From an uncultured Sphingomonadaceae bacterium (GTDB lineage: Bacteria > Pseudomonadota > Alphaproteobacteria > Sphingomonadales > Sphingomonadaceae), in assembly GCA_947501325.1 (NCBI GenBank), contig CANMVC010000002.1, positions 434,001 through 498,000 of the forward strand: DNA of 64,000 nucleotides, given 5' to 3'. Made by a program: the position numbers and the translations under genes. Every line of letters starts with the position of its first letter. Position 1 is the first letter of the stretch. Positions 4,821-24,513 of this stretch are shown here, in pieces. The notes beneath the pieces were generated by a model, which worked only from the letters and a program-made list of their open reading frames with translations, was not told the origin of the DNA and did no database searches.

Positions 4821-6977
4821 ATGACAACGCGCGTTCTCATTGTTGATGACCGGCCAACAAATCTCAGGATTTATGCCCAGTTTGTGACCATCATGGGGGA
4901 GAAATACTCCTCCGTGACATTTGCCGATCCCGTTGAAGCATTGGAATGGCTTGGGAATAACGGTGCGGAACTGCTTGTTGTTGACTATCGCATGCCGCAG
5001 ATGAACGGCGCTGAATTTATCAGAAAAGTCCGTAAAATGGCCAGCTGCAGTGATGTCCCTGCAATCGTCATTACAGCCCATCAGGATCGCGAATGTCGTC
5101 TTTCTGCTCTTGATGCCGGAGCGACCGACTTTCTTCAGAGTCCGGTATCCCATGTAGAGTTTTGCAAGCGCGCCATGTCACTTCTGACGAAAAGCGAGAA
5201 AAGCGTCAATTTGCGGAAGCGGGCATCGGAGATCGAGCGGAAACACGCAGCGCTGTCTGACGCCGTCGATAAAGATACGCCAGCAAGCAAAAGCATGCTG
5301 GAACAAATCATCGATACCATACCGATCATGATCAACGCCACAGATCGTTCAGGTCGGTGTCTTTTCACCAATGCCTATCAATCCGCCCTGTTTGACAAGA
5401 CACCTGACCAGATGGTCGGCAAAGATTTTGGTGAATTGCTTGGGCCGGAACTCGCGCAAAATTCGGAACGCAGAAATAAGAGCGTGCTCAAATCAGAGCA
5501 ACCCATTCCTCACTATGAAGAGAAGTTCGTCAGTGACGGCGTCGAGCTCATTTTCCATTGCAACAAGTCTCCATTATTGAATCATAACGGTGAGACTATT
5601 GGCGTATTGACGACCGCAGTTGATATTACCGCGCGTAAATTTGCGGAAGAGCACCGGACGCATCTTGCTTTGCATGATATGTTAACGGGGTTGCCCAATC
5701 GCGCATTATTGGCTGAAAAAGTCCGTAAAGCTATCGACACGTGCTCAAAAACGGGTCAGGAAGCGGCCTTATTGCTACTTGATCTGGATCGTTTCAAAGT
5801 AATCAATGATACCCGCGGGCATCATAGCGGCGACACATTGTTGAGAGAAGTCGCCGATCGTCTCGTCGAGATGATCGGACCGGACGATTTTGCAGCCCGT
5901 ATCGGTGGTGATGAATTTGCCATCATATTGGGCAAAGTGGATGGTTCGGATGCCATCAACTCACGCTGCACCAAATTACTCAAAGCAATAAATCAGCCCT
6001 ATTCGATCAGCGGCATAGAGCAGGTCATCGGTGCCAGCATCGGGGTAAGCTTGATACCAACCGACGGCACGGAATATGAGGAGCTACTCCGCCTCGCCGA
6101 TCTCGCAATGTATGATGCGAAGGCCAATGGCCGCAATTGCCATCGCTTCTTCTCAGAAGGTATGAACCAGATCGCGCAGGCTGATGCTGCGCTGGAGATA
6201 GAGTTACGCAACGCGCTGGCGCAGAACGAGTTTGCTCTAGAATATCAGCCTATCGTGAATGCGAAGACCCTGAATTATGTCGGGCTGGAAGCATTGATCC
6301 GTTGGGACCACCCTACCCGTGGACGGCTCTTGCCGGTACAATTTATCAGGGTAGCCGACGACACCGGTATTATGGACAACTTGGGCAAATGGGTGATTGC
6401 CGAGGTCTGTAGACAAATCCGGCAACTTGCCGATGAGGGCGTGGATTTGCCTCGCGTGGCTATCAACATATCTCCACGCCAATTCCAGAACCAGAATGTT
6501 TGCGAAGAGATATTGAAAAATATCGAGAAGAACGGAATTGATCCTTCCAAAATTGTTGTCGAGATTACAGAAGAGTTGCTGCTGGATAATAATGATCACA
6601 TCCGCCAGACATTAAACCGCCTGCGGGATACCGGTGTAGGCATCTCTATCGATGATTTTGGCACCGGTTATTCTTCATTGCAATATCTTCGCGACCTACC
6701 AGCCAATTGCCTGAAAATTGACCGTACATTCATATCTCGGATCGAACACTCATCCGCTGATCGCGCTATTATTGGCACCATCTCGCATCTCGCCCACGCG
6801 CTTGACATGCGGGTCATTGCCGAGGGCGTTGAAAATGATGCGCAGCTTGAATTGTTACAGGTATCAGGAGTTGACGAAATTCAAGGGTTTAAAATCGCCC
6901 GTCCTCAGCGCGCAGAGGATTTGCCAAAGCTTTTCCGTGCGCAATCAGCGCAAGCCTCCAGTGCAGCCGAAGGATAG
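4821..6977 (+). CDS. REC-PAS-GGDEF-EAL response regulator, likely c-di-GMP output of the DSF system
   Basis: The 718-residue protein has four domains in order. A receiver (1-120) has acidic residues D9/D10 and phosphoacceptor D55 in VVDYRMP. A PAS domain (about 160-275) follows, then a GGDEF domain with intact GGDEF at 362-366, then an EAL domain with EAL at 490-492. The EAL catalytic set looks complete: NISPRQF, VEITEELL, IDDFGTGYSSL, LKIDR, AEGVEN and IQGF. The product may therefore both make and degrade cyclic di-GMP. No RxxD inhibitory site precedes GGDEF. The receiver lacks the usual switch Lys: the KP motif reads SP at 107-108. The stop lies 4 nt before the ATG of the RpfC-like kinase, so the two are translationally close and probably partners. 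The PAS-GGDEF-EAL order matches RpfR, the DSF-binding protein of Burkholderia; signal binding here is inference. Confidence 0.93.
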   Translation: MTTRVLIVDDRPTNLRIYAQFVTIMGEKYSSVTFADPVEALEWLGNNGAELLVVDYRMPQMNGAEFIRKVRKMASCSDVPAIVITAHQDRECRLSALDAGATDFLQSPVSHVEFCKRAMSLLTKSEKSVNLRKRASEIERKHAALSDAVDKDTPASKSMLEQIIDTIPIMINATDRSGRCLFTNAYQSALFDKTPDQMVGKDFGELLGPELAQNSERRNKSVLKSEQPIPHYEEKFVSDGVELIFHCNKSPLLNHNGETIGVLTTAVDITARKFAEEHRTHLALHDMLTGLPNRALLAEKVRKAIDTCSKTGQEAALLLLDLDRFKVINDTRGHHSGDTLLREVADRLVEMIGPDDFAARIGGDEFAIILGKVDGSDAINSRCTKLLKAINQPYSISGIEQVIGASIGVSLIPTDGTEYEELLRLADLAMYDAKANGRNCHRFFSEGMNQIAQADAALEIELRNALAQNEFALEYQPIVNAKTLNYVGLEALIRWDHPTRGRLLPVQFIRVADDTGIMDNLGKWVIAEVCRQIRQLADEGVDLPRVAINISPRQFQNQNVCEEILKNIEKNGIDPSKIVVEITEELLLDNNDHIRQTLNRLRDTGVGISIDDFGTGYSSLQYLRDLPANCLKIDRTFISRIEHSSADRAIIGTISHLAHALDMRVIAEGVENDAQLELLQVSGVDEIQGFKIARPQRAEDLPKLFRAQSAQASSAAEG

Positions 6978-6981
6978 CAGG

Positions 6982-9570
6982 ATGATATCATTCCGCTCGC
7001 AATCGCGGCGCAAAAAACACAAACAGAGCAAGTCTCACCACCACCACCACCACCATCACATGCATAATCGCCATGGTGTCGCCGCTCGCGGTCGCAACCG
7101 GGAACGCGAAATGATCATAAACCGGCTGGTTTTGATCTTGATAACCCTTGCGATCTCGATATTTCTCGACGCCGGACCGGAACTCATCTTCGGCTTTCAG
7201 CTCCACTTGATGGCAAGCTTGGCAATTTTCGTCGTCTATCGCTTAAACCCCCTGCGCAGCAAGGCGCGACTGTTTGCCGGATTGATAACTGATTTTGGGG
7301 TATCGACGTATCTTTTTGAAATCGGCGGCGGCGCTGTAGCAGCGCTTTATCCGTTATATTTGTGGGTCATATTGGGCTACGGCTTCCGCTTCGGGATTAA
7401 ATGGCTGGCAATCGCCGCTGCTATGGGCACGACGGCATTTGGCTGGACGGTCTACAGCGTTCCCTTCTGGCACCAAAACTATTCCCTCTCTTTGGGCTTA
7501 TTAGCAGGATTGGTCGTTGTTCCCGCCTATTGCTCCACGCTGATCATCAAAATTTCCAAGGCCACCAAGGAAGCAGAAGAAGCGAATAAAGCCAAAAGCC
7601 TATTCCTGGCGAGTATCAGTCACGAATTGCGCACACCGCTCAATGCCATTATCGGATATGGCACGCACCTGCTCGATATGAAGCTGCCGGAAGCGCAACA
7701 ACAAATGGTGAGCACGAGCGTTTCTGCTGGTCAACATCTCCTCCACCTCATCAACCAGTTGTTGAGTTTTGCGCGATCCGATACCCAGGAAGAACTGCCA
7801 GAGCCAAAAACATTCAGCATCGTCGACGTGCTCACGGAAGTACGCGACATCATGCAGTTAGCGGCGAGTGAAAAAGACCTGACCATCAATCTGCAGGCCG
7901 AAGCGATGAGTGATCAGCTTGTTGACGGGCAACTGGAAAATATTCGCAACATACTAATCAATCTCACGAGCAATGCGATCAAATTCACCGAAACCGGCGC
8001 TATAACCTTGAAATGTGGTATCGATACTGATGCTGATATTCCCCTGCTATGGTGTTCGGTCACCGATACTGGAACGGGCATCGCGCCCGATGCTCATGAG
8101 AAGATTTTCGAAGTTTTCCAGCAAGCCGATGACAGCATTATCGACAATTTTGGAGGAACCGGCCTCGGATTGGCGATATGTCAAAAACTGGCCATACAGA
8201 TGGACGGCCTCGTCACTCTTGACAGCGCGCTGGGAGAAGGCAGCACCTTCACCCTGTCTTGCCCGATCAGTATTACAGAGGACGTTCAAAGCGAGCCTGC
8301 GGGAGATGATCTGCGCATTCTATCTCTCGGTTTTGGGTCAGATGGTCCTGAGATAAGCGGCCAAGGGGCGGCTGGAGCAAAAGTCGATCACATACAATGT
8401 TCGCCTACTGACAGGCTGGAAACAATCCTCAAACACCACCCGCTTCATTCCTATGACCTTGCGTTACTCGACAAAGCAATAGCGGAAAAACACAATGATG
8501 ATGATGAATTCTGGAGTGTTTTTCGAGAAGCAGATCTGCCTCCAGTTCTGTTATCCGATGATAGCGACAAGAGCCTGGATGACATCAAGTTGCGCGCAGC
8601 ATTTGCCTCAGTCTTGCCGGCTTCACCCAATTTTGACGCTGTGCGCAGCGTTGTTCAAATCGGTTGTTCATTCAACCGAACCGGTAAAAAGGCAGAGGAA
8701 GATCCTGATAGGATAGTTCGTACCGACGTATCCCTCAATATATTGATCGCCGATGATAATCGCACCAACCAGATGGTTCTACAAACCATCTTGGTCAATG
8801 CCGGGCATAAGGTTGTTGCCGTTTCAGACGGTGAACAAGCTTTGGATGAACTCGAAAAATATACTTTTGATATCGTGTTTCTGGATGTCAACATGCCGAA
8901 TATCGGAGGCATCGAATGCTGTAAATTATGGCGCCAGATCGAAGGCCCGCGCAATCATGTGCCGATTATCGGACTAACCGCGGACTCCACACCGGAAACA
9001 GAGCAGAAATGTCTGGATGCAGGGATGGACCTTCGCCTCACCAAACCTATTGAAGCTGGCGTCTTGCTGGATACAGTCGCAGAACAAACGGGTAATTTCT
9101 TGGAGCCCGACACAGCACAAGCAATTAGCAAGAACGATGATCCATTTAATGTGGTCCGAAGCATCGGAGGCAAAATGACCGATCAACCGGAGCCGCCGAT
9201 TGACGGCGTTCAAATGGATTATCTCAAATCCATTGGCGACGAGACTTTCATCCAATCGATCATCAGTGCGTATGTAGAAGATACGGTTGAGATAATGACC
9301 GCTTTTGAGCAGTCTGTCGAACAGATGAATGTTGATGACTTTCGTTTTCAGGCCCATGCATTTAAAAGCGGCGCCAATAATATCGGCGCAAAGAAGCTGT
9401 CAAAAATGTGTGCTCATCTCGAAGTCATAACAGAAGCCGAATTTCTCGAAAAACGGCTTAACTATCTGGAAGAAATGAAAATAGAAGTTAATCGGATCAC
9501 ACATTATTTCAGTAATCAGCAAAGCGATCAAACCCCTGATATGGATGATAGTTTCAGCGCTGCGAGCTAA
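6982..9570 (+). CDS. RpfC-like hybrid sensor histidine kinase (TM-HisKA-HATPase-REC-HPt)
   Basis: The ATG at 6982 is chosen because AGGA lies just upstream and it begins 4 nt after the preceding stop; this gives 862 residues. Order: a basic N-terminus with eight consecutive His (19-26); hydrophobic segments between about 45 and 190; HisKA with H214 in SISHELRTPL; HATPase with NAIKF (331-335), DTGTGIAP and GGTGLGLAI. Next comes a divergent receiver-like stretch (about 440-560) without an Asp motif, a true receiver with D635 in FLDVNMP and K688 in LTKP, and an HPt domain with H792 in AHAFKSG. This follows the layout of RpfC, the DSF sensor of Xanthomonas, with an added pseudo-receiver. It is convergent with an RpfF-like synthase (4-nt overlap) and downstream of a c-di-GMP response regulator. 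The RpfC role is inferred from architecture and neighbours. Confidence 0.85.
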   Translation: MISFRSQSRRKKHKQSKSHHHHHHHHMHNRHGVAARGRNREREMIINRLVLILITLAISIFLDAGPELIFGFQLHLMASLAIFVVYRLNPLRSKARLFAGLITDFGVSTYLFEIGGGAVAALYPLYLWVILGYGFRFGIKWLAIAAAMGTTAFGWTVYSVPFWHQNYSLSLGLLAGLVVVPAYCSTLIIKISKATKEAEEANKAKSLFLASISHELRTPLNAIIGYGTHLLDMKLPEAQQQMVSTSVSAGQHLLHLINQLLSFARSDTQEELPEPKTFSIVDVLTEVRDIMQLAASEKDLTINLQAEAMSDQLVDGQLENIRNILINLTSNAIKFTETGAITLKCGIDTDADIPLLWCSVTDTGTGIAPDAHEKIFEVFQQADDSIIDNFGGTGLGLAICQKLAIQMDGLVTLDSALGEGSTFTLSCPISITEDVQSEPAGDDLRILSLGFGSDGPEISGQGAAGAKVDHIQCSPTDRLETILKHHPLHSYDLALLDKAIAEKHNDDDEFWSVFREADLPPVLLSDDSDKSLDDIKLRAAFASVLPASPNFDAVRSVVQIGCSFNRTGKKAEEDPDRIVRTDVSLNILIADDNRTNQMVLQTILVNAGHKVVAVSDGEQALDELEKYTFDIVFLDVNMPNIGGIECCKLWRQIEGPRNHVPIIGLTADSTPETEQKCLDAGMDLRLTKPIEAGVLLDTVAEQTGNFLEPDTAQAISKNDDPFNVVRSIGGKMTDQPEPPIDGVQMDYLKSIGDETFIQSIISAYVEDTVEIMTAFEQSVEQMNVDDFRFQAHAFKSGANNIGAKKLSKMCAHLEVITEAEFLEKRLNYLEEMKIEVNRITHYFSNQQSDQTPDMDDSFSAAS

Positions 9571-10520
9571 ACACTCTGAAGTGAGCGCTCAATTCTGCGT
9601 TGCTGCGCTGCTGCCAGGCGTTCCATTTTGCGAACATCGACTTCTTCAAGATGAAGCGCTGTTTCCGCCCACATATCCGTAATTTCTAACAACTCATCTA
9701 TCGTGACCGGGTTTGATAGACGTCTGGCTTTATAAACGGCCCGTTCGGCATGAAAGCGTTTGCGGTTTTGTTGGGTATATTCGACAATTGCTTGTTCGCC
9801 TTTCCCATCCTCGGCAAGGATATCGACAACGCCCATGTCGTAGAGTTCCTCCGCTGTGAACAATTTGCCTTCCAATATAAACCGTTCCGTATCGCGGCGG
9901 CTGAGCCGCTGCCTCAGATAGCTATAGGCGCCCATACCCGGGAAAAGATTAAACAAAATCTCGGGCAGCCCCAATCTTGCGCTTTTTTCTGCTACCAGAA
10001 GGTCAAAAGCCAGAGCATGTTCAAACCCGCCACCCAAAGCGTCGCCCTGCACCAATGCCATAGTTATAATCGGCGCACCAAATCCCGTGCTGTTGGCATG
10101 CTGCATGTGAACGCAGGTGCGTGCATATTTTTTCAGTGCGCCCAAATCGCGCCGCCTGATGCAGTCGGCAAAATGTTTGAGATCTCCACCAAGATTATAG
10201 ATACCAGGAGTATGAGATCCGCAAACAAAATATCTCAGTGGATCAGCGGCTGCATTGGCATTCGTACCGTAGTTGGTTTGAACCCAATCTTGCACCAGCT
10301 GGATTTCATCACCTAGCTCATAGGTATAGCTTGGACGTGACTTCTGATTCATATAGCACCAGAAAATCTCGTCTGACTTATCGAACCGCAAATCAATTTC
10401 ATTAAATTTCTGTTTGAGTATGTCTTGACCAAAACCATGCTGCTCAATGATCAAGGATTCCGTTTCATCAAGGATCAAATCGCCCTCAACATCATTTACG
10501 GCTTGGCTTCTCAAATCCAT
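9567..10520 (-). CDS. rpfF: RpfF-like DSF synthase (crotonase fold)
   Basis: The ATG at 10520 has GGAG 7 nt upstream and gives 317 residues. The upstream in-frame start at 10619 lacks this and would add an unrelated extension. The protein is a crotonase-superfamily enzyme with RpfF signatures: IYNLGGDL, VQGDALGGGFEHAL, and GLPEILFNLFPGMGAYSY. E167 and E187 sit at the positions of the two catalytic glutamates of Xanthomonas RpfF, with the same 20-residue spacing. RpfF dehydrates 3-hydroxyacyl-ACP and hydrolyses the thioester to release cis-2-unsaturated fatty acids used as quorum signals. The gene is tail-to-tail with the RpfC-like kinase and lies in the same direction as the gpsA-lipid cluster, 355 bp downstream of it. 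The fatty acid product here cannot be told from the sequence. Confidence 0.9.
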   Translation of the reverse strand: MDLRSQAVNDVEGDLILDETESLIIEQHGFGQDILKQKFNEIDLRFDKSDEIFWCYMNQKSRPSYTYELGDEIQLVQDWVQTNYGTNANAAADPLRYFVCGSHTPGIYNLGGDLKHFADCIRRRDLGALKKYARTCVHMQHANSTGFGAPIITMALVQGDALGGGFEHALAFDLLVAEKSARLGLPEILFNLFPGMGAYSYLRQRLSRRDTERFILEGKLFTAEELYDMGVVDILAEDGKGEQAIVEYTQQNRKRFHAERAVYKARRLSNPVTIDELLEITDMWAETALHLEEVDVRKMERLAAAQQRRIERSLQSV

Positions 10521-10875: not shown

Positions 10876-11877
10876 TCAGCCCGCGTCAGCTTCAGAACCA
10901 GCAGATGCGCTAATCAATCCCCGGTAAGCGCGTGTTGCAGACCGCGTGCCTTTGGTAACTTCAAATACATCTTCTGCAATCGGCATTGCGACATTATATT
11001 TTTTTGCCAATGCCATAACCGTGGGCGCACTTTTCACGCCCTCAGCGACCATCAACATATCTTCGATAATATCATCAATTTTACGGCCTTTTCCGAGTTC
11101 TACGCCCACATGCCGGTTGCGGCTGAGGGGGCTGGTACATGTCGCAATCATATCGCCCATGCCCGTCAGTCCCGAGAACGTCTCCGCGCGTCCGCCCATG
11201 GCGACACCTAAACGGGTAATTTCAGCCAACCCGCGTGTAATTAATGCTGAGCGCGTATTGTCCCCTGCCCCAAGGCCGTCGCCCATGCCGACCGCAATGG
11301 CGATAATATTCTTCAGCACACCCCCAAGCTCACAGCCGAGCAAATCGGTGTTGGTGTAGACCCGGAACAATCCGGAATGGAATAGTTGTTGGAGCTGCTT
11401 GACGATAATCTCGTCTTCCATGGAAATTACGCTAGCGGCAGCCTGGCCAGCCATGATTTCGCGGGCCAGATTGGGGCCAGTCAAAACGCCGACCGGATGC
11501 CCCGGCAACACGTCTTCGATAACCTCAGTCATCCGTTTGCCGGTGGAAAGCTCGAGGCCTTTGGTCAAGCTGATCACTGGGACCCACGGTCTTAAATAGG
11601 GCTTGGCCTCTTCCAACACATCGCGAAAGTTACTGGAAGGAATTCCCATGACGAGCACGTCAGCGTCCGAGACAGCTTCACCGATATCGCCAGTCGCCTC
11701 CAATGCATCGGGCAATTCGGCATCGGGTAGATATTTGCTGTTCCGATGGTTCTTGTTGATGTCGTCAACGGTATCGCTATCTCTTGCCCAAATCTTGATG
11801 GGTGCATTGCGCGAAACCAACGAGGCTACTGTTGTTCCCCAGGACCCGCCGCCCAATAGTCCAACGCGCAATTTCAT
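10876..11877 (-). CDS. gpsA: NAD(P)-dependent glycerol-3-phosphate dehydrogenase GpsA
   Basis: The 333-residue protein begins with a dinucleotide-binding motif (GLLGGGSWGTTVAS) and has the GpsA signatures GPNLAREI and the GVLKNIIAIAVGMGDGLG segment near the active-site lysine. It reduces dihydroxyacetone phosphate to sn-glycerol 3-phosphate, the backbone for phospholipids and triacylglycerol. It is the most downstream member of a leftward series whose other members acylate that same product (plsB, HAD-plsC, WS/DGAT), so its location makes metabolic sense. It starts 67 nt after the stop of the upstream hydrolase gene. Confidence 0.96.
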   Translation of the reverse strand: MKLRVGLLGGGSWGTTVASLVSRNAPIKIWARDSDTVDDINKNHRNSKYLPDAELPDALEATGDIGEAVSDADVLVMGIPSSNFRDVLEEAKPYLRPWVPVISLTKGLELSTGKRMTEVIEDVLPGHPVGVLTGPNLAREIMAGQAAASVISMEDEIIVKQLQQLFHSGLFRVYTNTDLLGCELGGVLKNIIAIAVGMGDGLGAGDNTRSALITRGLAEITRLGVAMGGRAETFSGLTGMGDMIATCTSPLSRNRHVGVELGKGRKIDDIIEDMLMVAEGVKSAPTVMALAKKYNVAMPIAEDVFEVTKGTRSATRAYRGLISASAGSEADAG

Positions 11878-11944
11878 AATTTTTCCCCATTTTTCCGCGA
11901 CTCCTCTTTTTGAGAAGTTCTATGCGATCAAACTGGCTGCAATT

Positions 11945-12874
11945 TTAATGTTTTGCAAGAAATGCAAGGTGGGCAGCAGCGGTTTCTTTGGGCTTTTCTA
12001 TCATCGGAATATGCCCGGTCTCTTCAAAGATCACCGCTTCACTGTTGCTAATACCTTCTTCTAGCACCTTAACGCAGCTGACATCGATCAACCGGTCATA
12101 GCGACCCCAGATGATCAAACTGGGTGCCGTCACTTCACCGAGGCGGTCATTAAGCGGGTGATTTATCCCGGCGCCAGCGATTTGCCAGAATATCTTGTCA
12201 AGGACCTCTCGATGCGCCTCCGCCTCTGCAAAGAAGATTTTCTTGAAGTTTTTGGGCATAGGTACTGGTTTGTAAGAAACGAAAGCCATCAGACGGTCGA
12301 CATCCGAGACATCCTTCAAGGCCAAGGTATTCTCGCCCTTTTCTGCAGCAACGGCCAACTCACTTTTTTCGTCACCAACCACGCCGGCATTGTTGAACAG
12401 GGTAAGTGAGGCAACTTTATCAGGATATTCCATCGCAAATTGCAAGGCGATGAATCCGCCCATACTATTGCCGCCAAGATGGCATTTGGTAATAGCCATC
12501 GCGTCCAAGAATGCATTTAATCGATGCACCTGTGATGAAATGTCATAATCGCGATCCAGAGATCGGTTATTTTCACCAAATCCAGGCAGATCAGGTGCGA
12601 TCAATCGATGGTGTTTGGTGATATGGGGGGCGTAGATGGACCAGTTATCCTTGTCACCGCCGAAACCGTGCAGCAAAACGACCGGTACTCCGTCGACCCG
12701 ACCGCTTTCGAGATAGGGCCATACATTATCGCCCACCTTGACTGATTTCTGTCGCATACCCCCGCGCAACCGCAGCAGAGCTGTCATCATGCCGTAGAGC
12801 GCTTTGGGGAAGACGAAATAACCGATCAAAAAAGCGAGAGTTACTGCACCCAAAAAGTATAGAATGATCATCAT
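11945..12874 (-). CDS. Membrane-anchored alpha/beta hydrolase
   Basis: The 309-residue protein has an N-terminal hydrophobic segment (residues 3-23) that could anchor it in the inner membrane, followed by an alpha/beta hydrolase domain. Visible elements are the oxyanion-region HGFGG, the nucleophile elbow GNSMGG with S137, an acid in WGRYDRLID, and the catalytic His in TGHIPMIEKP. The substrate is unknown. Its place in a run of lipid genes suggests a lipase or esterase acting on acylglycerols or related esters. It follows another hydrolase gene by 31 nt and precedes gpsA by 67 nt. Confidence 0.85.
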   Translation of the reverse strand: MMIILYFLGAVTLAFLIGYFVFPKALYGMMTALLRLRGGMRQKSVKVGDNVWPYLESGRVDGVPVVLLHGFGGDKDNWSIYAPHITKHHRLIAPDLPGFGENNRSLDRDYDISSQVHRLNAFLDAMAITKCHLGGNSMGGFIALQFAMEYPDKVASLTLFNNAGVVGDEKSELAVAAEKGENTLALKDVSDVDRLMAFVSYKPVPMPKNFKKIFFAEAEAHREVLDKIFWQIAGAGINHPLNDRLGEVTAPSLIIWGRYDRLIDVSCVKVLEEGISNSEAVIFEETGHIPMIEKPKETAAAHLAFLAKH

Positions 12875-12905
12875 TACACAGTCCCCCGAATTCGCACCTT
12901 CGTGC

Positions 12906-13760
12906 CTATTTTTCTAATATGTGTTCGATCCAGTCAGTCATATCGGTCAACACGGTATCTTTTTCCGGCTCGTTAAAAATCTCATGAAACAAGCCTGGAT
13001 AGATTTTAAGCGCCTTTTCCTCTGAACTGATATTATCATTCAGGAAAACGGATCCCTCGGGCGCCGTGAGACTATCATCCGCGCCATGTAGCAACAGCAT
13101 GGGAAGCGTAATGCGAGCTGCCTGATCTTGCACCATTTCCATGTTTTCCATCATCTCTGCCGCTAACCGGGCACTAATCTTGGCGCCCGATACGAGTGGA
13201 TCGGCAAGATAGGCAGCTACAACTTTGGGATCACGACTCACACCGTTCGCATCCAAGCCCAATACGCCCATTTTGGGAGCCGCCTTGGATAAAAAACGAC
13301 TGAGCCCCTTCATAAAGGAAGACGGCTCCTCGGTTGCCTTGATCGCGGGTCCAGACAACACAGCTGCAGCAAAACGGGATTGATTTTCAAGCAAGTAGGA
13401 AGCGCTAATTAAGCCGCCCAGGCTATGCCCCACTAATATCCACGGCAATGCCTGCTGGTCTGCGGGTATCTGGTCGAGAAGCGTGTCCAAACCATCATGA
13501 TAGACTGAAAATTCTGGAACAAAGCCATTTATGCCGTCCGATTTTCCATGCCCCCAATGATCTAGAGTATGCACGGCAAATCCGTGCTTTACACAATGCT
13601 CCGCAAAATAGGCGTAGCGGCTACTATGTTCATCATAGCCGTGCACCAATATGATGATGCCCTTCGGAGCGTCAGCTGGTGACCAGCTTTGGCAATAAAG
13701 CTTCGCACCCGCCGCAGCTGACGAAGCCGCCAGAGCCAAGCTTGCTTCTATATGGTTCAA
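12906..13760 (-). CDS. Monoacylglycerol lipase-like alpha/beta hydrolase
   Basis: The 284-residue protein belongs to the serine aminopeptidase/monoacylglycerol-lipase branch of alpha/beta hydrolases (Hydrolase_4). It shows LVHGYDEHSSRYAYFAEH near residue 40, the nucleophile elbow GHSLGG with S113, an acid in LLLHGADDSLTAPEG, and the terminal His in YPGLFHEIFNEPEK. All are typical of monoglyceride lipases. Its start overlaps the stop of the patatin gene by 4 nt (ATGA), so translation is coupled. A role in finishing triacylglycerol breakdown is inferred from family and context. Confidence 0.88.
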   Translation of the reverse strand: MNHIEASLALAASSAAAGAKLYCQSWSPADAPKGIIILVHGYDEHSSRYAYFAEHCVKHGFAVHTLDHWGHGKSDGINGFVPEFSVYHDGLDTLLDQIPADQQALPWILVGHSLGGLISASYLLENQSRFAAAVLSGPAIKATEEPSSFMKGLSRFLSKAAPKMGVLGLDANGVSRDPKVVAAYLADPLVSGAKISARLAAEMMENMEMVQDQAARITLPMLLLHGADDSLTAPEGSVFLNDNISSEEKALKIYPGLFHEIFNEPEKDTVLTDMTDWIEHILEK

Positions 13761-15235
13761 GCGATTTTTCTTTTCATTGCAGCAGAATGGTCATGCGCCA
13801 ATTCATTTTCATATTCGAATAATATCCGGTCCAATGTTTGGCTAATTTTTGTCTGCGTGCGGACCATTTCAATCTTAGGCCAAGTCGTGCGTTCGCCCAA
13901 TTGGATGAGCTCTCTAATATCTTCCAATGACAGATCACTGAGCAGCTTACTGGGACTCCAAAACATGCTGGGGCGAATGATATTGATATCGCCTGTATAG
14001 TCCTGGTTGATCACAGACAGGGTCATATTAGCCATCGTGTTCAACCGCGGGAAATAAGAAAGCGGCTTTTGCATGATTTCTACATTGGCGTTGAGCCAAG
14101 CCTTCATTGTAGACGTCGTCGCGTTTCTGATCGCCCCGATGGGACTTTTCTGTTGCTTCACATCGGTCGCAAATGGCGTGATCAGCGGATTGGCCTGACT
14201 TACGATATGGTGGTTCACACCATAAAGTCGGCCCAGCCGCTTGGCAGGAAGATCATGGGTAACGGACCCATCGACCCACTTGCGATTAGGCAGATAGGGT
14301 TTGCGCTGCCCTGTGTGATCCTTGGCGGCCAACGTGACTGGTGGATAAATCCCCGGAACGGCGCAAGAAGCCATAACGGCTTCACGGACATAGACATTAG
14401 GCGAAGCGATCGCATTGAGCAGTCGCGACGTCTGATGTTTTTCCGCAGGCGCAATCGAGACGTTCAAATGCCTGCCGGTTAACTCATAGGCTTCCTGAAA
14501 TGTCAGATCGGGAATCATATTGCTGATGCGTTCCCGAATTTCGTCAATTTTCAGTCGCTTCGTGCCACCAAATATTCCAAAGCCGGTTTGGTTCGCGAGC
14601 TCTTCACGCCCCTGGGTGACCAGGTTTTCGGGTTCAAAAAACGGGGGAATTTCGTCATCAACATGCGTACTCACCAGAGCACCAACGACCGAACCGCCAC
14701 TCGATCCGGATAAAATATGCGGCAACAGGCCTTCTGACCATAATGACTTCACCACACCCATATGAAAATACAGAAACGCACCGGAACCACTCATCAAGAA
14801 TGCGGAACGACCATAGCAATGTTGCGCACGGCGAAAGAAGTCGAGCTTCTCTTCGAACGGGATATCGGTGACCTTGTCACTGGCTAAATATTCCAGTGAA
14901 TTGACAATCGCATCGACATAATCCTGGATCAACTGCTTGGTACCGAATTTTGCTTTCTGATGCAGCCGGTCGTTACCCATACCATCCATATTGCCGTGAA
15001 TACCTTCATTCAGAGCATAAAGCAGTCCAGCATTGTCTTGTGCCTTCCAGAGTTTCGACAGCCGCTTTAACCGTCGACGGATGGACTTGTGATCAAAATG
15101 CTTGCTTTCGTCATTCGACTTCCAGACATCCACGCCGGTCGCTCGATCATGTGCTGCTGCCGCATCAGACCAGTCGGAATAATTTTCCGCCTGGGCCATG
15201 GCTTTTTCAAGTTTCAAACTGGTATTCAAAATCAT
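13757..15235 (-). CDS. Patatin-like triacylglycerol lipase with DUF3336 N-terminus
   Basis: The 492-residue protein has an N-terminal DUF3336-like region (about 15-140, with the RRLKRLSKLWKAQD helix) followed by a patatin domain. The patatin part shows an oxyanion segment MSGSGAFLYFHMGVV, the nucleophile motif GSSGGS, and the dyad Asp in WVDGSVTHDLP. The DUF3336-patatin combination is the one found in eukaryotic triacylglycerol lipases such as yeast Tgl3/4/5. Hydrolysis of stored triacylglycerol is therefore the best guess. It lies 85 nt after the wax ester synthase/DGAT gene and overlaps the monoacylglycerol lipase-like gene by 4 nt. Confidence 0.88.
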   Translation of the reverse strand: MILNTSLKLEKAMAQAENYSDWSDAAAAHDRATGVDVWKSNDESKHFDHKSIRRRLKRLSKLWKAQDNAGLLYALNEGIHGNMDGMGNDRLHQKAKFGTKQLIQDYVDAIVNSLEYLASDKVTDIPFEEKLDFFRRAQHCYGRSAFLMSGSGAFLYFHMGVVKSLWSEGLLPHILSGSSGGSVVGALVSTHVDDEIPPFFEPENLVTQGREELANQTGFGIFGGTKRLKIDEIRERISNMIPDLTFQEAYELTGRHLNVSIAPAEKHQTSRLLNAIASPNVYVREAVMASCAVPGIYPPVTLAAKDHTGQRKPYLPNRKWVDGSVTHDLPAKRLGRLYGVNHHIVSQANPLITPFATDVKQQKSPIGAIRNATTSTMKAWLNANVEIMQKPLSYFPRLNTMANMTLSVINQDYTGDINIIRPSMFWSPSKLLSDLSLEDIRELIQLGERTTWPKIEMVRTQTKISQTLDRILFEYENELAHDHSAAMKRKIA

Positions 15236-15320
15236 AAATTACTCGCTTACTGCATGATCAAATAGCGACATCGATCAGAAAAGGCACCCTCATTGAAGAT
15301 AGCCCACGATATTTTCTCTC

Positions 15321-16874
15321 CTATTCAGTCTTACTCGGCTTTGTTGTTCGCGGATTTTTTGAAACCCGTCGATACATAACCGATCCATCTTGCGGCTTGG
15401 CCTCGGATTTAGTCGGGCTTCGCTTTGCCTTCTTAGCTCCCTTGGCCGGTTTCGCGTCGCGAAGCTGTGCGAACGCTGTTTGAAGGCATTCTCGGAAAAA
15501 CTCAATGTCTGGCATTATTTTTCGGTCAGAAATGATGCTGAACGAAATAGTCCCGTGATAGCTGGGTGTGGCTATAAATAGCCCCATCCCGTTACCCAGC
15601 GGTCCCAAACCATATTGATGCGTCAATTTGGCGCCGTTCATATAAAGCTGAACCTGTGGCCCAGGCACGTTAGATACGAACAGATTGCTCACCTTCTGAG
15701 AAAAGCGCTCGCTATTCAAAACGCGGGCCACACCCGATAGGGTCGCTCCTGGAATATGCTTGGTAAGATCTGTCATAACCCTCGCACTAAGACCAGATTT
15801 TGCCGCCTTGGTCTCACGTGTGGTGTCTCTTATCGCTTCCAGACGCTCCAGCGGATCTGCAATATTTGACCAGATTTTGACCGTCATGGCCGATATATTC
15901 GTGCCGGGATTAGCTTCCTCGCCCGTTCGGCTCCGTGCATTGATCGGTGCGACCGCAACTAGAGATTCATCCGGTAGTTCTTTATGTTTGGTGAGATATT
16001 TCCGCAACGCACCACTACAGATAGCTAGCACCACATCGTTGATTGTCGCGCCATCAACCTTCAGGCGCATGGCCTTCAAGTCATCAAGCGGGAATGTAAC
16101 AGCCTCAAACATTTTGTGCGGAGAAACCGCACCATTAAATCGGGTTTCCGGAACCTTGCCCTCTCCACCTTCACCTCCACTAGCAATATTTTTCTGCGCA
16201 TTTTTTAAAATTGCCGGGGTCAGTTTTAACAGCGCTTGCGTCAACTTAACGGGCGATGTCACTGTGCTGTTGACGGCACGGCTCAGTATCTCCGCCGGCT
16301 CTGGAAGCGGTGCCATCTCCGATTCTTTCTTGGGCAGCGGAATCGCGGGCGTGCCTTTTGTATCAATATCAGAGATCGAGGCGAAGAAATGAGCTCCCGA
16401 AGTACCATCAATTGTAGAATGATGTATCCGGGTCATAATCGCATAGCTGCCCTTGGCAATGCCTTCGATATTGTCCAGGCCTTCAACGACATACATGTCC
16501 CAGAGAGGACGGTTCATATCCAAAGGTTTGCTATGATGACGCGCGACATGGATACAGAACTGACGCCAATCGCCTGGCTCCGGCAACCTGCTGTGAGAGA
16601 TATGCGCTTCCAGATCGAAATGTTCGTCTTCAACCCAATAGGGATGATCAATGTCTAGCGGAAGCCGGTAGAGCTTCCTTTTAAACATGGGCGAAACGAT
16701 CATCCGCTTTCGCATATGTTCAATAATGTCTTTGAACCTTACCTTGCCCCCCGGTGCTGAGGAAGGATCATAGATATAAACCGCCATGACGTGGGTTAAG
16801 TTATCTGGCGTCTGCATATAGACAAACTGCGCATCCTGCGCACTTAACTGATGGGGCTGCGGCTTGTCTGTCAT
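15321..16874 (-). CDS. Wax ester synthase / diacylglycerol acyltransferase (WS/DGAT)
   Basis: The ATG at 16874 is preferred because AAAGGA lies 7 nt upstream. An ATG at 16904 would overlap the plsB stop by 4 nt but has no visible ribosome-binding site. The 517-residue product carries the acyltransferase motif HHSTIDG (HHxxxDG, residues 151-157), the PLW motif at about 123, and the NDVVLA segment of bacterial WS/DGAT enzymes. It transfers an acyl group from acyl-CoA to diacylglycerol or a fatty alcohol. The C-terminus is basic and rich in Lys/Pro/Ser. Its neighbours supply acylated glycerol, so triacylglycerol is a likely product; wax ester formation would need a fatty acyl-CoA reductase not seen here. 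Confidence 0.94.
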   Translation of the reverse strand: MTDKPQPHQLSAQDAQFVYMQTPDNLTHVMAVYIYDPSSAPGGKVRFKDIIEHMRKRMIVSPMFKRKLYRLPLDIDHPYWVEDEHFDLEAHISHSRLPEPGDWRQFCIHVARHHSKPLDMNRPLWDMYVVEGLDNIEGIAKGSYAIMTRIHHSTIDGTSGAHFFASISDIDTKGTPAIPLPKKESEMAPLPEPAEILSRAVNSTVTSPVKLTQALLKLTPAILKNAQKNIASGGEGGEGKVPETRFNGAVSPHKMFEAVTFPLDDLKAMRLKVDGATINDVVLAICSGALRKYLTKHKELPDESLVAVAPINARSRTGEEANPGTNISAMTVKIWSNIADPLERLEAIRDTTRETKAAKSGLSARVMTDLTKHIPGATLSGVARVLNSERFSQKVSNLFVSNVPGPQVQLYMNGAKLTHQYGLGPLGNGMGLFIATPSYHGTISFSIISDRKIMPDIEFFRECLQTAFAQLRDAKPAKGAKKAKRSPTKSEAKPQDGSVMYRRVSKNPRTTKPSKTE

Positions 16875-16900
16875 AGGTGAGTCCTTTCCAATAGGCTCAT

Positions 16901-19246
16901 TCATTCAAAAATTTTGTCAGCGAGACTCAACACTTCCAAACGAGATTTTTCCATTCGCCGTGACAACGCTCGAAATTTGCGGAGCAATGCCCTACGCTTA
17001 ACGATTGTTTCTTCCGTGGTTTCACCAGTCAGACCCTGACTAGCCGCCATTTTAAAACCATTTTCAAACAAAATTTTACCGATGGAGGCTTCACTCGTAA
17101 TCCGCCTCAGCAGATAGGCTTGGCGTCCTTCTTTAAGAGCCTCTTCTACGCATGTTTTCTTGTCGATAGCCTGTCCTGGCTCAAGCCGAGATAATATATC
17201 CAGCACAACCGTGTAGGATTCAACGAACGGAAGAAAAACAGCGTGCCCGATGAGAGGTTGAAAGCGGTTTGTTAAACTTTTTAGCAATACCCCACCCTTT
17301 TCCAGCTTCATCTCCCAGTCCGGACATGAGCGGGTCAACTCGGCTTTAAGGTTCTTGCGATACTCTTTTTTGGGAGGGTAGAAAAATTCAAATTTGAACA
17401 GATCGCGCAAGCGTTCGGTTTCAGCCCAGAACACATCCTTGGGAACATCATCCTTGTTTTCCCTAGCCTTTAGCAAAGAAAGTTCAATGATGGCCTTATC
17501 AAGGAAATGGTGGATGATGGAATTACGATAGTAGCTCGCCAAGGGATGCTTTTCCGGCTGGATCGCATAGACTGTACTCGATCCTTGATCATAACGCACG
17601 AACAGGCCGCTATTGACCAGTGTATCAACAACTTTTTGAATACCCTCTAGGTTTTGAGTGGTCAGATCATCGCTGAACCTGATTTTGCGCTCTTGCGCCC
17701 ACTCAACAAAGAAATTGATGACAGCGCGCAACTCGTCGGCGGTCATGGCCCGCGGCGCAGTTCCCAGTAGGCTCAGGCACATTAAAGATGTCAGTGTGAG
17801 AGGTGTCGCACGATTGGCCTCAACCGCGACTTCGAATGCAATTTTGGAAAGTCCAATCCTGTCATCTGGCTCAGGCGCTTTTTCGACAATAACCGGCTTG
17901 CCAAAATCGACATAGACCTTACCCATCGGTTCACGCAGGCTGCGAAGGTAACCGATAAACCAGCTTAACGATTCCGCTTTCTTGGCTCGCCCCGTTTGCT
18001 CACTAGCATATTCCTCGACGTCGCGAATTAGATCAAAGCTGGTCACGACCGGAATGATGTGGACATTTTTTATGTCATTCACATTTGCGCTATCCATGAC
18101 ATATTTCAGCAAACCATAGCGTGGTGGCATAAGCTTTCCGAGCCGCGAGCGTGTGCCTTCGAAAGCCCAGGTCATAGGAAAACGCTTTTCCAGTAAATAA
18201 CTGACATAGTGTCGCAAAACGAGCTTGTAGACTGGGTTGTTTTCAAAACTACGGCGAATAAAAATCGTTCCAGCCCGGCGCAAAACAAAGCCCAAGCCAA
18301 AAAAGTCGAGATTGATACCACCAAAAACGTGCACCATCGGAAGATCGTTTTGATACGCCAGATCTGTCGGCGTCACACCATCGATATAGGTTTTATGGGT
18401 AAACAGCAGCAATGTTGGATGATCTCGCATTGTCTTGCGCAATCGAGCTAACTCGCTTTTCTTAAACACCACCTCATCTTCATAACCTTGAGACAGCATG
18501 AAACGATCAAGCTTTGCTTTCATATCAATGAAGAACGCACTCGGTCGAGCGATCAATTCCTTCATATATTTGCTGGCTTCTTCGTATAATGCCGCCTCTG
18601 GCTTATCGAGATCAGTTGCCAGCTCCGTCATTGCAGCCCGGAATTTCGGGCTTGTCCGCAACCCGTCAGCAACAAAACGCGGGACTTTGTAACGGCGTCC
18701 GCGAAGACCGCGTTCTTCGATATCGAGAACAAGGCCGGCTTGACGCACAACAAAACCAGCAAATTCGTGCTCATCATCGCTTTGAACTTGAACTGCATTT
18801 TGCTGCTCAAAACGCTGCCTCAGGTCGTTGATTGTTGCGGGTTGCCCCGTCAGGCAGTGCGCGCGGCGTTTATTGCGAAGCAAGATCGTACGCGCCCTAA
18901 AGCTGCCCGGTGTTCGCGGATCACCGAACAAAGCATGTCGCTTTTTGAGCGCACGGCTCTTTTCAAAATTGGGAATTCGCCAAGCGATGCGGACAGGTAT
19001 TACGAGAGTTTCTGGCTCAGCGTCGAGTTTTTGAATGAGCTCTTTCAATCGCAAACGCGCGCGTTCATCGGATATCGGAAGGCTGACCCAGTTGATTTGC
19101 CTTCCGGGACCTCCTTCGGCCAATGAGGTATGCAGCCAATCCAGCAGATAGCGGCGCTCAACACGATTACGCGCATCAATGACAAATAGCTTGGGCCCCT
19201 GTGTCAGCAGAGGAACCGCTTTCGCTATCGCCGCTGATTCATCCAT
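16901..19246 (-). CDS. plsB: Glycerol-3-phosphate 1-O-acyltransferase PlsB-like
   Basis: The 781-residue protein has PlsB length and the four acyltransferase blocks: HKTYID (the HX4D motif, H284-D289), LRRAGTIFIRRSF, FEGTRSRLGKLMPPRYG, and VHIIPVV. It puts the first acyl chain on glycerol 3-phosphate at the inner membrane, making lysophosphatidate. It starts 9 nt after the HAD-plsC stop and its stop overlaps an alternative upstream start of the WS/DGAT gene, so the three are almost certainly cotranscribed. The N-terminal 250 residues and the C-terminal 280 residues are the usual PlsB flanks. Confidence 0.94.
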   Translation of the reverse strand: MDESAAIAKAVPLLTQGPKLFVIDARNRVERRYLLDWLHTSLAEGGPGRQINWVSLPISDERARLRLKELIQKLDAEPETLVIPVRIAWRIPNFEKSRALKKRHALFGDPRTPGSFRARTILLRNKRRAHCLTGQPATINDLRQRFEQQNAVQVQSDDEHEFAGFVVRQAGLVLDIEERGLRGRRYKVPRFVADGLRTSPKFRAAMTELATDLDKPEAALYEEASKYMKELIARPSAFFIDMKAKLDRFMLSQGYEDEVVFKKSELARLRKTMRDHPTLLLFTHKTYIDGVTPTDLAYQNDLPMVHVFGGINLDFFGLGFVLRRAGTIFIRRSFENNPVYKLVLRHYVSYLLEKRFPMTWAFEGTRSRLGKLMPPRYGLLKYVMDSANVNDIKNVHIIPVVTSFDLIRDVEEYASEQTGRAKKAESLSWFIGYLRSLREPMGKVYVDFGKPVIVEKAPEPDDRIGLSKIAFEVAVEANRATPLTLTSLMCLSLLGTAPRAMTADELRAVINFFVEWAQERKIRFSDDLTTQNLEGIQKVVDTLVNSGLFVRYDQGSSTVYAIQPEKHPLASYYRNSIIHHFLDKAIIELSLLKARENKDDVPKDVFWAETERLRDLFKFEFFYPPKKEYRKNLKAELTRSCPDWEMKLEKGGVLLKSLTNRFQPLIGHAVFLPFVESYTVVLDILSRLEPGQAIDKKTCVEEALKEGRQAYLLRRITSEASIGKILFENGFKMAASQGLTGETTEETIVKRRALLRKFRALSRRMEKSRLEVLSLADKIFE

Positions 19247-19255
19247 TCTGCCTCA

Positions 19256-21043
19256 CTATTTTTCCGACACTGCTGGTTTCTTTAGCGGTGCCTTCCGAGA
19301 TATTGTTTTTTTTGCCGCCGGTTTTTTTGTGGCTGATGCTTTGGATGCAGCAGGCTTCCGTGCAGGCTTTTTCGCAGCAGCAGAACGGCTGCTTGCCTTC
19401 GCCGCAGTCGCGGTTTTTGCGACGACAGGCTTTTTCCGTGGCGTGGTCTTCTTGGTGGCGGGAGTAGCCTTCTTGGTGGCTGGAGCCGTCTTTTTCGCAG
19501 CAACTTTGGTCGCGGTTTTCCCAGCTTTTGCTCTTACTGGAGTGGTTTGCTTCACATTAGCCTGCCGCGGCGACTTGGCCACCGCTTCGGCCACTTCGGC
19601 CATGGCAGCATCTTCATCACTCTGCCCCAGTGCTTTGAGGAACATCCCTCGAACCTCGGCCACATGCTCGTTCAAAGTTGCTTTTTTCCATTTACTCGTA
19701 TCGACGGGCGGCAAGATATCGACCTTCACGGTAGCTGATCGCATCACAAATTCATTTTTCGGCGCCACGTCGCCCGCATTATGAATAACCACCGGAACCA
19801 TAGGCACTCCTGCCTGCATGGCGAGGTGGAATGCACCTTTCTTGAACGGACCTATTCTGGGTGACAGAGTACGCGTGCCTTCGGGGGCAATACAGATCGA
19901 CTTTCTGTCAATTTGTATTGCATCTACAAGCGGTTCCATCGCTTTGATCGCATTACGTCCATCGGCCCTGTCAACAAACACGGTCCCGGCCATCTCCATG
20001 ACCTTACCGATTATCGGGGTATCCTTAACTTCTTTCTTTGCGATCCCGCCCACGTCTTTACGCACCAGTTTTGCCATAATCATGACATCGGCTTTGCTCT
20101 GATGATTAAAGACAAAAATGCAGGGTCTGTTCACCCACAAGTTTTCTTCTCCGCTCACATCCAGCTCAACGCCGGTCAGGGCGGTGGCAATATCGCCAAA
20201 CAGACCGGTTGAGAAATTAGTTGCCTCACGCTGCGAACCAGTTAGCGCCCAGATAGGGAGCCCTGCAACAAAAGAGGTGACCAGCGATCCGGTTGCGTAA
20301 ATGGTCCGCAGATAATCAACCGGCTTACCCTGCCCGCGGCTATCAAATTTCTGCAGCGGCCAGCCGCGTTCTTTCGCAACTTCTGTAAGCTTATTATTGG
20401 GATTGAGCGGACGCGGGTTGCCGACCCGTTCCAGTAATTCGATGTCATCGTAGCTATCCGAATAAAAATAGCTCTTTTTGAGATCTAGATCATATTCATT
20501 TGCCAGCTTTTCGGCAGCAATGACTTTGCCTTCGCCAAAACAAAGGGGACGAATGATATTCCCTGTAAACTCACCATTCTCAACCTCATATTGAGAACAT
20601 AGCACATGCTCGATGTTCAAATCACGTGCGGTGGGCTCAATCTGGTAAATCGTCGCCGACGAGACAATCGCGACTGTATGACCTTTTGCCATATGCGCCT
20701 CAATCAGGTCTCGTGATTCTGGATATACTTTTCGCGCTATATGCTTTTGATACAGCTCTTCTCCAAATTCAAAATAGCTATCTTCGGTGACACCTTTCAT
20801 GAATTTGGATGCCGCCATCATCAGGCCAGAAAAGCCCATGCTACCCATGCTATATTGTGCCATGACATTGGCCGTCTCGACCAATTCTTCCGCGGTCATT
20901 TCGCGGCGCTTAATCTTTTCCCACAACATCGCAGTCGCTGAATAACCGGCTATGATCGTGCCATCAAAATCAAACAGCGCAGCAATATGCGGCCCTTCAG
21001 GCGCGCTCAGAACATCCTGTAGATGCGAATCCCGATCAGCCAT
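19256..21043 (-). CDS. HAD phosphatase-PlsC acyltransferase fusion with histone-like basic tail
   Basis: The start at 21043 follows GAGGGA by about 5 nt; an open frame upstream to 21277 looks like leader. The 595-residue product begins with a SerB-type HAD domain (D25 and D27 in LFDFDGTII, then IVSSAT and FYSDSYDDIELL). A 1-acyl-glycerol-3-phosphate acyltransferase domain follows, with NHQSKAD (H314, D319), the VFVDRADG segment and PEGTRT (388-392). From about 490 the tail is Lys/Ala/Pro/Thr-rich with repeated KKP/AKK units, like histone H1. PlsC makes phosphatidate; the HAD part might dephosphorylate a lipid phosphate, giving diacylglycerol for the DGAT. HAD-PlsC fusions are known in mycobacteria; the tail is the odd part here. 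It heads the lipid gene series. Confidence 0.9.
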   Translation of the reverse strand: MADRDSHLQDVLSAPEGPHIAALFDFDGTIIAGYSATAMLWEKIKRREMTAEELVETANVMAQYSMGSMGFSGLMMAASKFMKGVTEDSYFEFGEELYQKHIARKVYPESRDLIEAHMAKGHTVAIVSSATIYQIEPTARDLNIEHVLCSQYEVENGEFTGNIIRPLCFGEGKVIAAEKLANEYDLDLKKSYFYSDSYDDIELLERVGNPRPLNPNNKLTEVAKERGWPLQKFDSRGQGKPVDYLRTIYATGSLVTSFVAGLPIWALTGSQREATNFSTGLFGDIATALTGVELDVSGEENLWVNRPCIFVFNHQSKADVMIMAKLVRKDVGGIAKKEVKDTPIIGKVMEMAGTVFVDRADGRNAIKAMEPLVDAIQIDRKSICIAPEGTRTLSPRIGPFKKGAFHLAMQAGVPMVPVVIHNAGDVAPKNEFVMRSATVKVDILPPVDTSKWKKATLNEHVAEVRGMFLKALGQSDEDAAMAEVAEAVAKSPRQANVKQTTPVRAKAGKTATKVAAKKTAPATKKATPATKKTTPRKKPVVAKTATAAKASSRSAAAKKPARKPAASKASATKKPAAKKTISRKAPLKKPAVSEK

Positions 21044-24444: not shown

Positions 24445-24513
24445 ATGGTTTATCGGGGATTGAATACATGACCATATTCATTCCTGACTGGCCAATATGC
24501 GCAGGTGGGGCTT

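Follow-up and report, generated by a model that had tools for sequence, protein, structure and literature searches.

The window analysed here, a stretch of 64,000 nucleotides from an uncultured Sphingomonadaceae bacterium, carries three adjacent genes that probably encode a diffusible signal factor (DSF) signalling module of the RpfF-RpfC type, in which a REC-PAS-GGDEF-EAL protein, referred to below as the output protein, stands in the place of RpfG. Two core DSF pathways, RpfC-RpfG and RpfR, are recognized in an excerpted review (PMC4504480). The pairing of RpfC with a REC-PAS-GGDEF-EAL protein is real and conserved, and apparently undescribed in the open literature searched, in that no account of RpfC adjoining such a protein was found there, most subscription journals lying outside the search. 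The function of the module is inferred from sequence, and the output protein is best read as an RpfG with its effector exchanged, because its receiver appears to be of the RpfG type and groups with the receivers of the RpfG slot.

The locus, its receiver, synthase and kinase

The output gene (4821..6977, plus strand, 718 aa) is followed by the gene for an RpfC-type hybrid histidine kinase (6982..9570, plus strand), and by their open reading frame coordinates both are convergent with the gene for an RpfF-family synthase (9567..10520, minus strand, 317 aa). The kinase ATG lies 4 bases after the output stop codon, the kinase and synthase genes, which run on opposite strands, share 4 bases at their 3' ends, and the output and kinase genes look like one operon. 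The open frame of the kinase, 950 aa long, begins within the output gene, and a start at 6982, giving 862 aa, is most likely. In xanthomonads, rpfGHC is convergent with rpfF according to the same review excerpt (PMC4504480), and the layout of the window is the Xanthomonas rpfG-rpfC/rpfF order with the HD-GYP domain of RpfG replaced.

By Pfam, the output protein consists of a receiver (aa 5-116, 4833..5168, plus strand; Response_reg, 6e-22), a PAS_4 domain (aa 165-273, 5313..5639, plus strand; 1.1e-13), a GGDEF domain with its motif intact (aa 283-439, 5667..6137, plus strand; 2.1e-47) and an EAL domain with the motifs EAL, ExTE, DDFGTGY and EGVE (aa 461-695, 6201..6905, plus strand; 5.1e-73), an architecture repeated in 52 loci. 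The 88 slot receivers, whose outputs are PAS-GGDEF-EAL (40), PAS-histidine kinase (14), HD-GYP (27) or other (7), form one group (Shimodaira-Hasegawa-like approximate likelihood ratio test, SH-aLRT, 99) in a receiver tree of 131 rows, 127 of them different. The rest of the tree, from which this group is separated, consists of 16 RpfC receivers and of 27 receivers out of the 31 that the window's genome has besides. The 56 alphaproteobacterial slot receivers are likewise grouped (SH-aLRT 99), as are 39 rows of which 38 are PAS-GGDEF-EAL (SH-aLRT 98), with the PAS-GGDEF-EAL rows L193 and L247 falling outside this last group.

The output receiver keeps D9, D10, D55 and T85 and has S107 at the position of the switch lysine, a residue with a role in the usual activation of receivers. 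D55 and T85 are present in 54 of 54 alphaproteobacterial-type receivers, and D9 and D10 in 53, the remaining row being cut there. The switch lysine is replaced by Ser or Thr in all 40 PAS-GGDEF-EAL and all 14 PAS-histidine kinase receivers; elsewhere, the position is Lys (16/27) or Arg (11/27) in HD-GYP receivers and Lys in every RpfC receiver (16/16) and own-genome receiver (27/27) compared.

Among all solved structures, the best matches of the synthase (ECH_1, 1.2e-17) are 3m6m, titled "RpfF protein" (1.3e-55), and 7zq7 (1.4e-55), a chain similar to 3m6m titled only as a crotonase family protein; 6dgn, titled "RpfF" (4.1e-45), and 5fus (5.4e-45) follow, and the next crotonase matches at 3.9e-12. 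We take 3m6m to be from Xanthomonas and 6dgn from Burkholderia. The catalytic residues E167 and E187 are invariant in a 16-row alignment, and both Glu residues occur in 52 of 52 loci of the REC-PAS-GGDEF-EAL layout. A tree of 159 synthases, made by a quick search with 5 of the 20 genus loci included and with named loci close to a contig end and lacking an output gene left out, splits 153 RpfF-type rows from 6 own-genome crotonases (SH-aLRT 100). In this tree 3m6m lies among HD-GYP loci and 6dgn among RpfR-type loci, and the synthase of the window belongs to a 99-row group (SH-aLRT 97) containing nearly all alphaproteobacterial rows. An ordinary enoyl-CoA hydratase was considered as the identity of the synthase and is ruled out by the structure matches and the placement in the RpfF clade. 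Two RpfF-like synthases adjoining RpfC-type kinases (L199, L201) have Asp at the expected second catalytic Glu (GLPD).

In the kinase, an N-terminal input region precedes, by Pfam, the order HisKA-HATPase-REC-HPt. The RpfC-type input domain (7090..7536, plus strand), with the sensor motif GRNREREMIINR, is colinear over its full length with the kinases of HD-GYP loci in a 43-kinase alignment. It is followed by HisKA (2.1e-18) and HATPase_c (1.1e-21) at 7591..8268, a receiver at 8740..9078 (REC, 1.8e-25; RpfC REC of 3m6m chain D, 3.1e-23) and an HPt domain with the motif HAFKSGANNIGA at 9259..9426 (8.6e-6), all on the plus strand. In the numbering of Xanthomonas campestris pv. campestris (Xcc) RpfC, taken from excerpts of one paper (PMC5391125), the window kinase has R, N, R and M at the DSF-sensing residues R15, D17, S18 and Q22 and retains E19, as the Glu at aa 41, and R26. 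E19 is described as conserved in all homologs having an RpfC-type input domain in the part available of another paper (PMC6536496), and it is Glu in 105 of 106 kinases here, with one gap, duplicates and short rows being excluded from the count. Q22 is kept as Gln in 26 of 26 HD-GYP and 13 of 14 PAS-histidine kinase systems and is Met, Ile or Leu in 46 of 49 kinases of PAS-GGDEF-EAL systems, a substitution that may reflect either descent or an altered ligand. This substitution and the absence of the switch lysine from 54 of 54 alphaproteobacterial-type receivers are both newly observed.

The sequence-only reading of this locus had named the three genes, their domains and the stretch that they span, and all of this is borne out; it had not mentioned that the synthase gene is convergent on the minus strand, or that the 950-aa frame begins within the output gene. 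The proposed RpfF-like synthase with both catalytic Glu residues and the RpfC-like kinase ending in HPt were likewise recovered, and the phylogeny by which that reading wished to see the synthase judged places it inside the RpfF clade. Neither of the two outcomes that it had named as refuting it came about, as the three genes also co-occur in related genomes.

Upstream of the sensor motif, the kinase gene has eight consecutive His codons (7036..7059, plus strand), and the residues listed ahead of the motif include at least 8 His in 13 of 19 genus kinases, a count in which the motif of L074 is poorly located. This stretch is possibly a metal or pH input, if it is periplasmic as in RpfC. In addition, the loci of Inquilinus limosus (L219) and of a record named Mycobacterium sp. 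KBS0706 (L220) encode two extra short RpfC-input-domain proteins that are rpfH-like; from its very similar locus, the latter record is probably a misnamed Inquilinus relative.

The PAS domain and the GGDEF-EAL body

The sequence-only reading held that the two DSF schemes are merged here, with an RpfC phosphorelay feeding a receiver in front of an RpfR-like body. The first part stands, as an RpfC-type relay does face a REC-PAS-GGDEF-EAL protein. The merger of RpfC and RpfR is not supported in the form given there; the output receiver is of the RpfG type, so that an RpfG with a new effector is the simpler account. As for the likeness of the body to RpfR, the domain order is shared, but the FI domain is not seen, the N terminus being the receiver (no profile search was aimed at FI), and only two of five ligand residues are kept. 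Of the 40 output-type bodies in the GGDEF-EAL tree, all but one share a group (support 84) that also takes in a single row from the window's own genome, on a long branch. The 39 bodies have support 93 after three long or odd rows are dropped. The RpfR/PdeR clade is placed apart, but the approximately unbiased (AU) test does not reject a joint clade of output and RpfR bodies (p 0.46).

The ligand residues of the RpfR PAS domain, according to excerpts of a published study, are S169, N172, Y183, R187 and N202 (PMC6361424). S169 and N202 are kept in the PAS domain of the window, and N172, Y183 and R187 are changed. Over 41 rows, S169 is found in 22, N172 and Y183 in none, R187 in 2 and N202 in 16, and the R187 column is Glu in 34; in most orthologs, four of the five columns thus depart from RpfR. 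The model of the PAS domain (mean predicted local distance difference test score 86, with the first 17 residues below 50) matches generic PAS domains in Foldseek, and the RpfR PAS domain, the likeness that the earlier reading had proposed to look for, is not among the best 50 matches listed. In a profile search the RpfR PAS domain appears in the 28th row (E 7.8e-5, with top rows at 4e-13), and a direct profile comparison aligns 135 columns with a probability of 95. The output protein is thus neither an RpfG, HD-GYP being absent, nor an RpfR, with no FI domain seen and different PAS residues. Direct signal binding by its PAS domain is a possibility, RpfS being described in the review excerpt as binding DSF through a PAS_4 domain (PMC4504480).

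The catalytic motifs of the body are well kept over the 52 loci (EAL in 52, DDFGTG in 49, exact GGDEF in 48). The inhibitory RxxD motif occurs in 12 of the 52 loci and in none of the window and 19 genus loci. By its motifs, the output protein would be able both to make and to break cyclic diguanosine monophosphate (c-di-GMP). Under high signal, phosphodiesterase activity is the likelier output because of the analogy with both known DSF pathways.

Distribution, co-occurrence and reduced loci

Searches with the window RpfF protein as query gave matches in 30 of 32 genus genomes (E <= 1e-30), 102 of 298 family genomes (E <= 1e-15), and 24 of 385 class and 63 of 398 phylum genomes (both E <= 1e-20). 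Regions were fetched from the genus (20 of 29 matching relatives), from the rest of the family (40 loci, out of 96 matching genomes), from the class (20 loci, from 19 of the 22 matching genomes outside the family) and from the phylum (20 loci); a named set comprised the best 80 of at least 566 confirmed loci, and one script classified all loci. RpfC with a REC-PAS-GGDEF-EAL protein was found in 19 of 20 genus loci, the 20th (L078) being cut by a contig end, and a set conserved to this extent is therefore not a matter of chance. The 40 other family loci comprise 6 with the same pair, 14 with a GGDEF-EAL protein convergent with RpfF and no RpfC, and 20 with neither. Among the 20 class loci, 14 have RpfC with a REC-(PAS)-histidine kinase, 1 has a REC-PAS-GGDEF-EAL protein and 5 lack an RpfC call, one of which (L179) shows the REC-HPt end of a kinase at the contig end. 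The 20 phylum loci comprise 7 with RpfC and REC-HD-GYP, 2 with REC-PAS-GGDEF-EAL, 2 with RpfC and no output, 8 with GGDEF-EAL and no RpfC, and 1 with none. Of the named loci, 24 have REC-PAS-GGDEF-EAL and 20 have HD-GYP; the remaining 36, half of which (18) are near a contig end, are incomplete or have another output or none.

Overall, 52 loci have the REC-PAS-GGDEF-EAL layout, 49 of them distinct (L215, L217 and L236 repeat G024, G082 and G783), and nearly all are alphaproteobacterial; 51 are convergent and one (L244) is divergent as scored. The HD-GYP layout was seen in 27 loci, 26 of them distinct (L239 equals L200). Named carriers of the former include Novosphingopyxis, Ancylobacter, Inquilinus, Roseomonas, Microvirga, Methylopila, Gluconacetobacter, Pinisolibacter, Aureimonas, Agaricicola, Rhizobium and Pseudovibrio, and the layout is not peculiar to sphingomonads. 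A locus from Ectothiorhodospiraceae (L281) has REC-GGDEF-EAL in a different orientation, with a body apart from the others in the tree.

The survey of sphingomonads for the three-gene set, suggested by the sequence-only reading, also shows co-occurrence across the 298 family genomes. A close RpfF, defined by at least 48% identity, is present in 12 genomes. The RpfC input domain (E < 1e-20) gives the identical set of 12, to which the output receiver adds two more (G167, G221). Weaker matches were set aside, namely RpfC input domains in G073, G252 and G282 (1e-9 to 3e-11) and a receiver match in G058 (7e-25) that belongs to a 292-aa REC-GGDEF protein adjoining a hybrid kinase. In G167 and G221, an RpfF match is absent at E <= 1e-15 and within the fetched 18 kb. 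Here (loci L352 and L353) an intact output gene is directly followed by one for a REC-HPt protein of 314 or 351 aa that retains the phospho-acceptor Asp and His motifs. This protein is apparently an internally deleted RpfC, because apparent remnants of the sensor motif and HisKA box can be read in that of G221. The retention of REC-HPt and output protein after loss of RpfF, sensor and kinase core supports a relay from HPt to the output protein that would be fed by another kinase.

The RpfG slot and the RpfF clade show further variety. Fourteen alphaproteobacterial loci (L175-L177, L180-L190) have RpfF and RpfC and, where RpfG would lie, a REC-(PAS)-histidine kinase. In 20 of the 40 other sphingomonad loci (L100, L102-L105, L107-L118, L120-L122), an RpfF-clade synthase, with no RpfC, is next to or at most a few kb away from a putative exosortase/PEP-CTERM polysaccharide cluster with genes, by sequence reading, for asparagine synthase, exosortase, glycosyltransferase and deacetylase. 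These synthases form one clade (SH-aLRT 98). Another group (L089-L099, L101, L106, L119) has a GGDEF-EAL protein convergent with RpfF; the six N termini examined appear hydrophobic and carry a GRNAGRP-like motif, and the three proteins scanned gave no Pfam match there. This protein, separate from RpfR in the body tree, is possibly a further type of DSF receptor.

Downstream of the module in the window, the minus strand carries putative lipid genes by sequence reading (10876-21277: glycerol-3-phosphate dehydrogenase, hydrolases, patatin, wax ester synthase, acyltransferases), several of which are common to 4 clustered genus loci and not to 29 others. A subtilase-like, autotransporter-like protein with many DPFSGN-type repeats close to its N terminus is read at 21382-24444, and a further GGDEF-EAL protein with a long region N-terminal to GGDEF at 24505-27132. 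When 33 loci were clustered for conserved extra neighbour genes, the most widespread group, of generic ABC ATPases, reached 7 loci, and the next groups occurred in 4 loci each, some across two genera.

Proposed mechanism, alternatives and known systems

In the mechanism that we propose, RpfF, by its family and catalytic residues, would make a cis-2 fatty acid, to which the RpfC-type kinase would respond through its membrane input domain. Phosphoryl groups would then pass from His to Asp (REC) to His (HPt) within the kinase and on to Asp55 of the output protein; the residues for this path are seen, and transfer to the output protein is suggested because two genomes keep only REC-HPt and the output protein. 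Phosphorylation would shift c-di-GMP, most likely by switching on the EAL phosphodiesterase, so that high signal would give low c-di-GMP as in Xanthomonas and Burkholderia. The PAS domain could be a second input, or a transmission or dimerisation unit. The exchange of effectors behind an RpfG-descended receiver probably took place within the Alphaproteobacteria, a class in which PAS-histidine kinase outputs are found in sister lineages.

Several observations weigh against this account. The synthase scores 222 bits against a cut-off of 550 for the NCBI RpfF equivalog model (NCBIfam); it does reach the broader model NF006452 (349 bits against 177), and the strict model either misses or excludes its clade. 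Three of the five Xcc DSF-sensing residues are changed in the window kinase (D17 to N, S18 to R, Q22 to M), and the match at R15 in the 106-kinase alignment is one column off in the 43-kinase alignment. The output protein may be activated off the usual route because its receiver lacks the switch lysine, and its GGDEF domain is intact too, so that the net change in c-di-GMP could have either sign. The receiver tree comes from 126 columns and a quick search and has many unresolved forks. Finally, the 48% identity line was set after the contexts were known, and the 12 co-occurrence genomes represent four genera, not 12 independent events, so that a random-placement estimate for them overstates their independence.

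Four other explanations should be compared with that of an RpfG with an exchanged effector. As the sequence-only reading suggested, though in the manner of RpfS and not of RpfR, the PAS domain might itself bind the fatty-acid signal or one of its precursors, so that phosphorylation and binding are integrated. PAS_4 is its best Pfam family, RpfS is described in the review excerpt as binding DSF through a PAS_4 domain (PMC4504480), S169 and N202 are kept, and a PAS domain is present in the GGDEF-EAL outputs and most kinase outputs; we nevertheless think it unlikely, considering the absence of N172 and Y183 from all 41 rows and of R187 from all but 2 (Glu in 34), the generic PAS domains that are the closest solved structures, and the commonness of PAS_4, which has 13 other matches in the window's genome. 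A true fusion of an RpfR-derived PAS-GGDEF-EAL part behind an RpfG receiver would explain the common domain order and the 135 aligned PAS columns (probability 95), and a common clade of bodies is not rejected (AU p 0.46). The position of the RpfR/PdeR clade elsewhere in the tree, the differing ligand residues, the FI domain not being seen and the 28th place of RpfR in the profile search argue in the other direction, and such a fusion seems to us most improbable.

It is also conceivable that the output receiver mainly binds proteins, with RpfF or the kinase docking on it ("partner swapping") and phosphorylation being minor. This would suit the missing switch lysine (40/40 REC-PAS-GGDEF-EAL and 14/14 REC-PAS-histidine kinase rows) and a model, given in the review excerpt, of RpfF interacting with several REC proteins (PMC4504480). 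The constancy of D55 and T85 (54/54) and of D9 and D10 (53, one row cut) makes it very improbable, as does the REC-HPt protein kept with the output protein where the kinase core is lost and RpfF was not found, which fits phosphotransfer. The last explanation, quite unlikely in our view, is that the module is not for DSF signalling, the synthase making another acyl product and the kinase sensing another ligand. The synthase score under the equivalog cut-off, the Q22 replacement by M, I or L in 46 of 49 kinases and the genus neighbours resembling lipid-metabolism genes would agree with this, whereas the nesting of the synthase in the RpfF clade with both Glu residues present, and the colinearity of the input domain with RpfC, with E19 and R26 kept, do not.

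If the account of an RpfG with an exchanged effector is true, DSF signalling extends widely among Alphaproteobacteria (Rhizobium, Gluconacetobacter, Roseomonas, Pseudovibrio, Inquilinus, sphingomonads), and the step downstream of the RpfC relay is exchangeable. The output protein would in addition be a clean case in which to study the control of a GGDEF-EAL enzyme by a receiver that lacks the switch lysine. More tentatively, and with rather less than even confidence, one might recognize a third core DSF pathway of alphaproteobacteria, combining a Q22-variant RpfC for another DSF-family signal, a two-input REC-PAS-GGDEF-EAL protein with a lysine-less receiver, and an exchangeable slot for HD-GYP, PAS-GGDEF-EAL or PAS-histidine kinase outputs. 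Alphaproteobacteria are credited with "RpfC-RpfG" in the accessible part of a KEGG-based review (PMC8895600), and their RpfC-like kinases are therefore already known as orthology codes. RpfR is presented as a DSF receptor widespread in Beta- and Gammaproteobacteria in excerpts of a 2022 review on c-di-GMP sensing (PMC8846402).

Among known systems, Xanthomonas RpfF-RpfC-RpfG shares with the window the gene order and orientation, the synthase family, the kinase input domain, REC-HPt and the output receiver group. It differs in having an HD-GYP output instead of PAS-GGDEF-EAL, and the window has a receiver without the switch Lys and a sensor in which Q22 is Met. RpfF-RpfR of Burkholderia and Cronobacter shares a PAS-GGDEF-EAL output with RpfF close by; however, as far as the excerpts describe it, RpfR has an FI domain, no receiver and other PAS ligand residues, and rpfR is directly convergent with rpfF, with no RpfC, unlike the layout in the window. 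RpfS, a PAS_4 histidine kinase of Xanthomonas known here from its description in the review excerpt (PMC4504480), shares PAS_4 with the output protein, and its layout, by description, resembles the REC-PAS-HisKA output of the sister alphaproteobacterial loci. PA1396 of Pseudomonas aeruginosa shares the RpfC-type input domain according to excerpts of one paper (PMC6536496), in which it is named as an interspecies sensor of DSF family signals and not as a member of a synthase-linked module.

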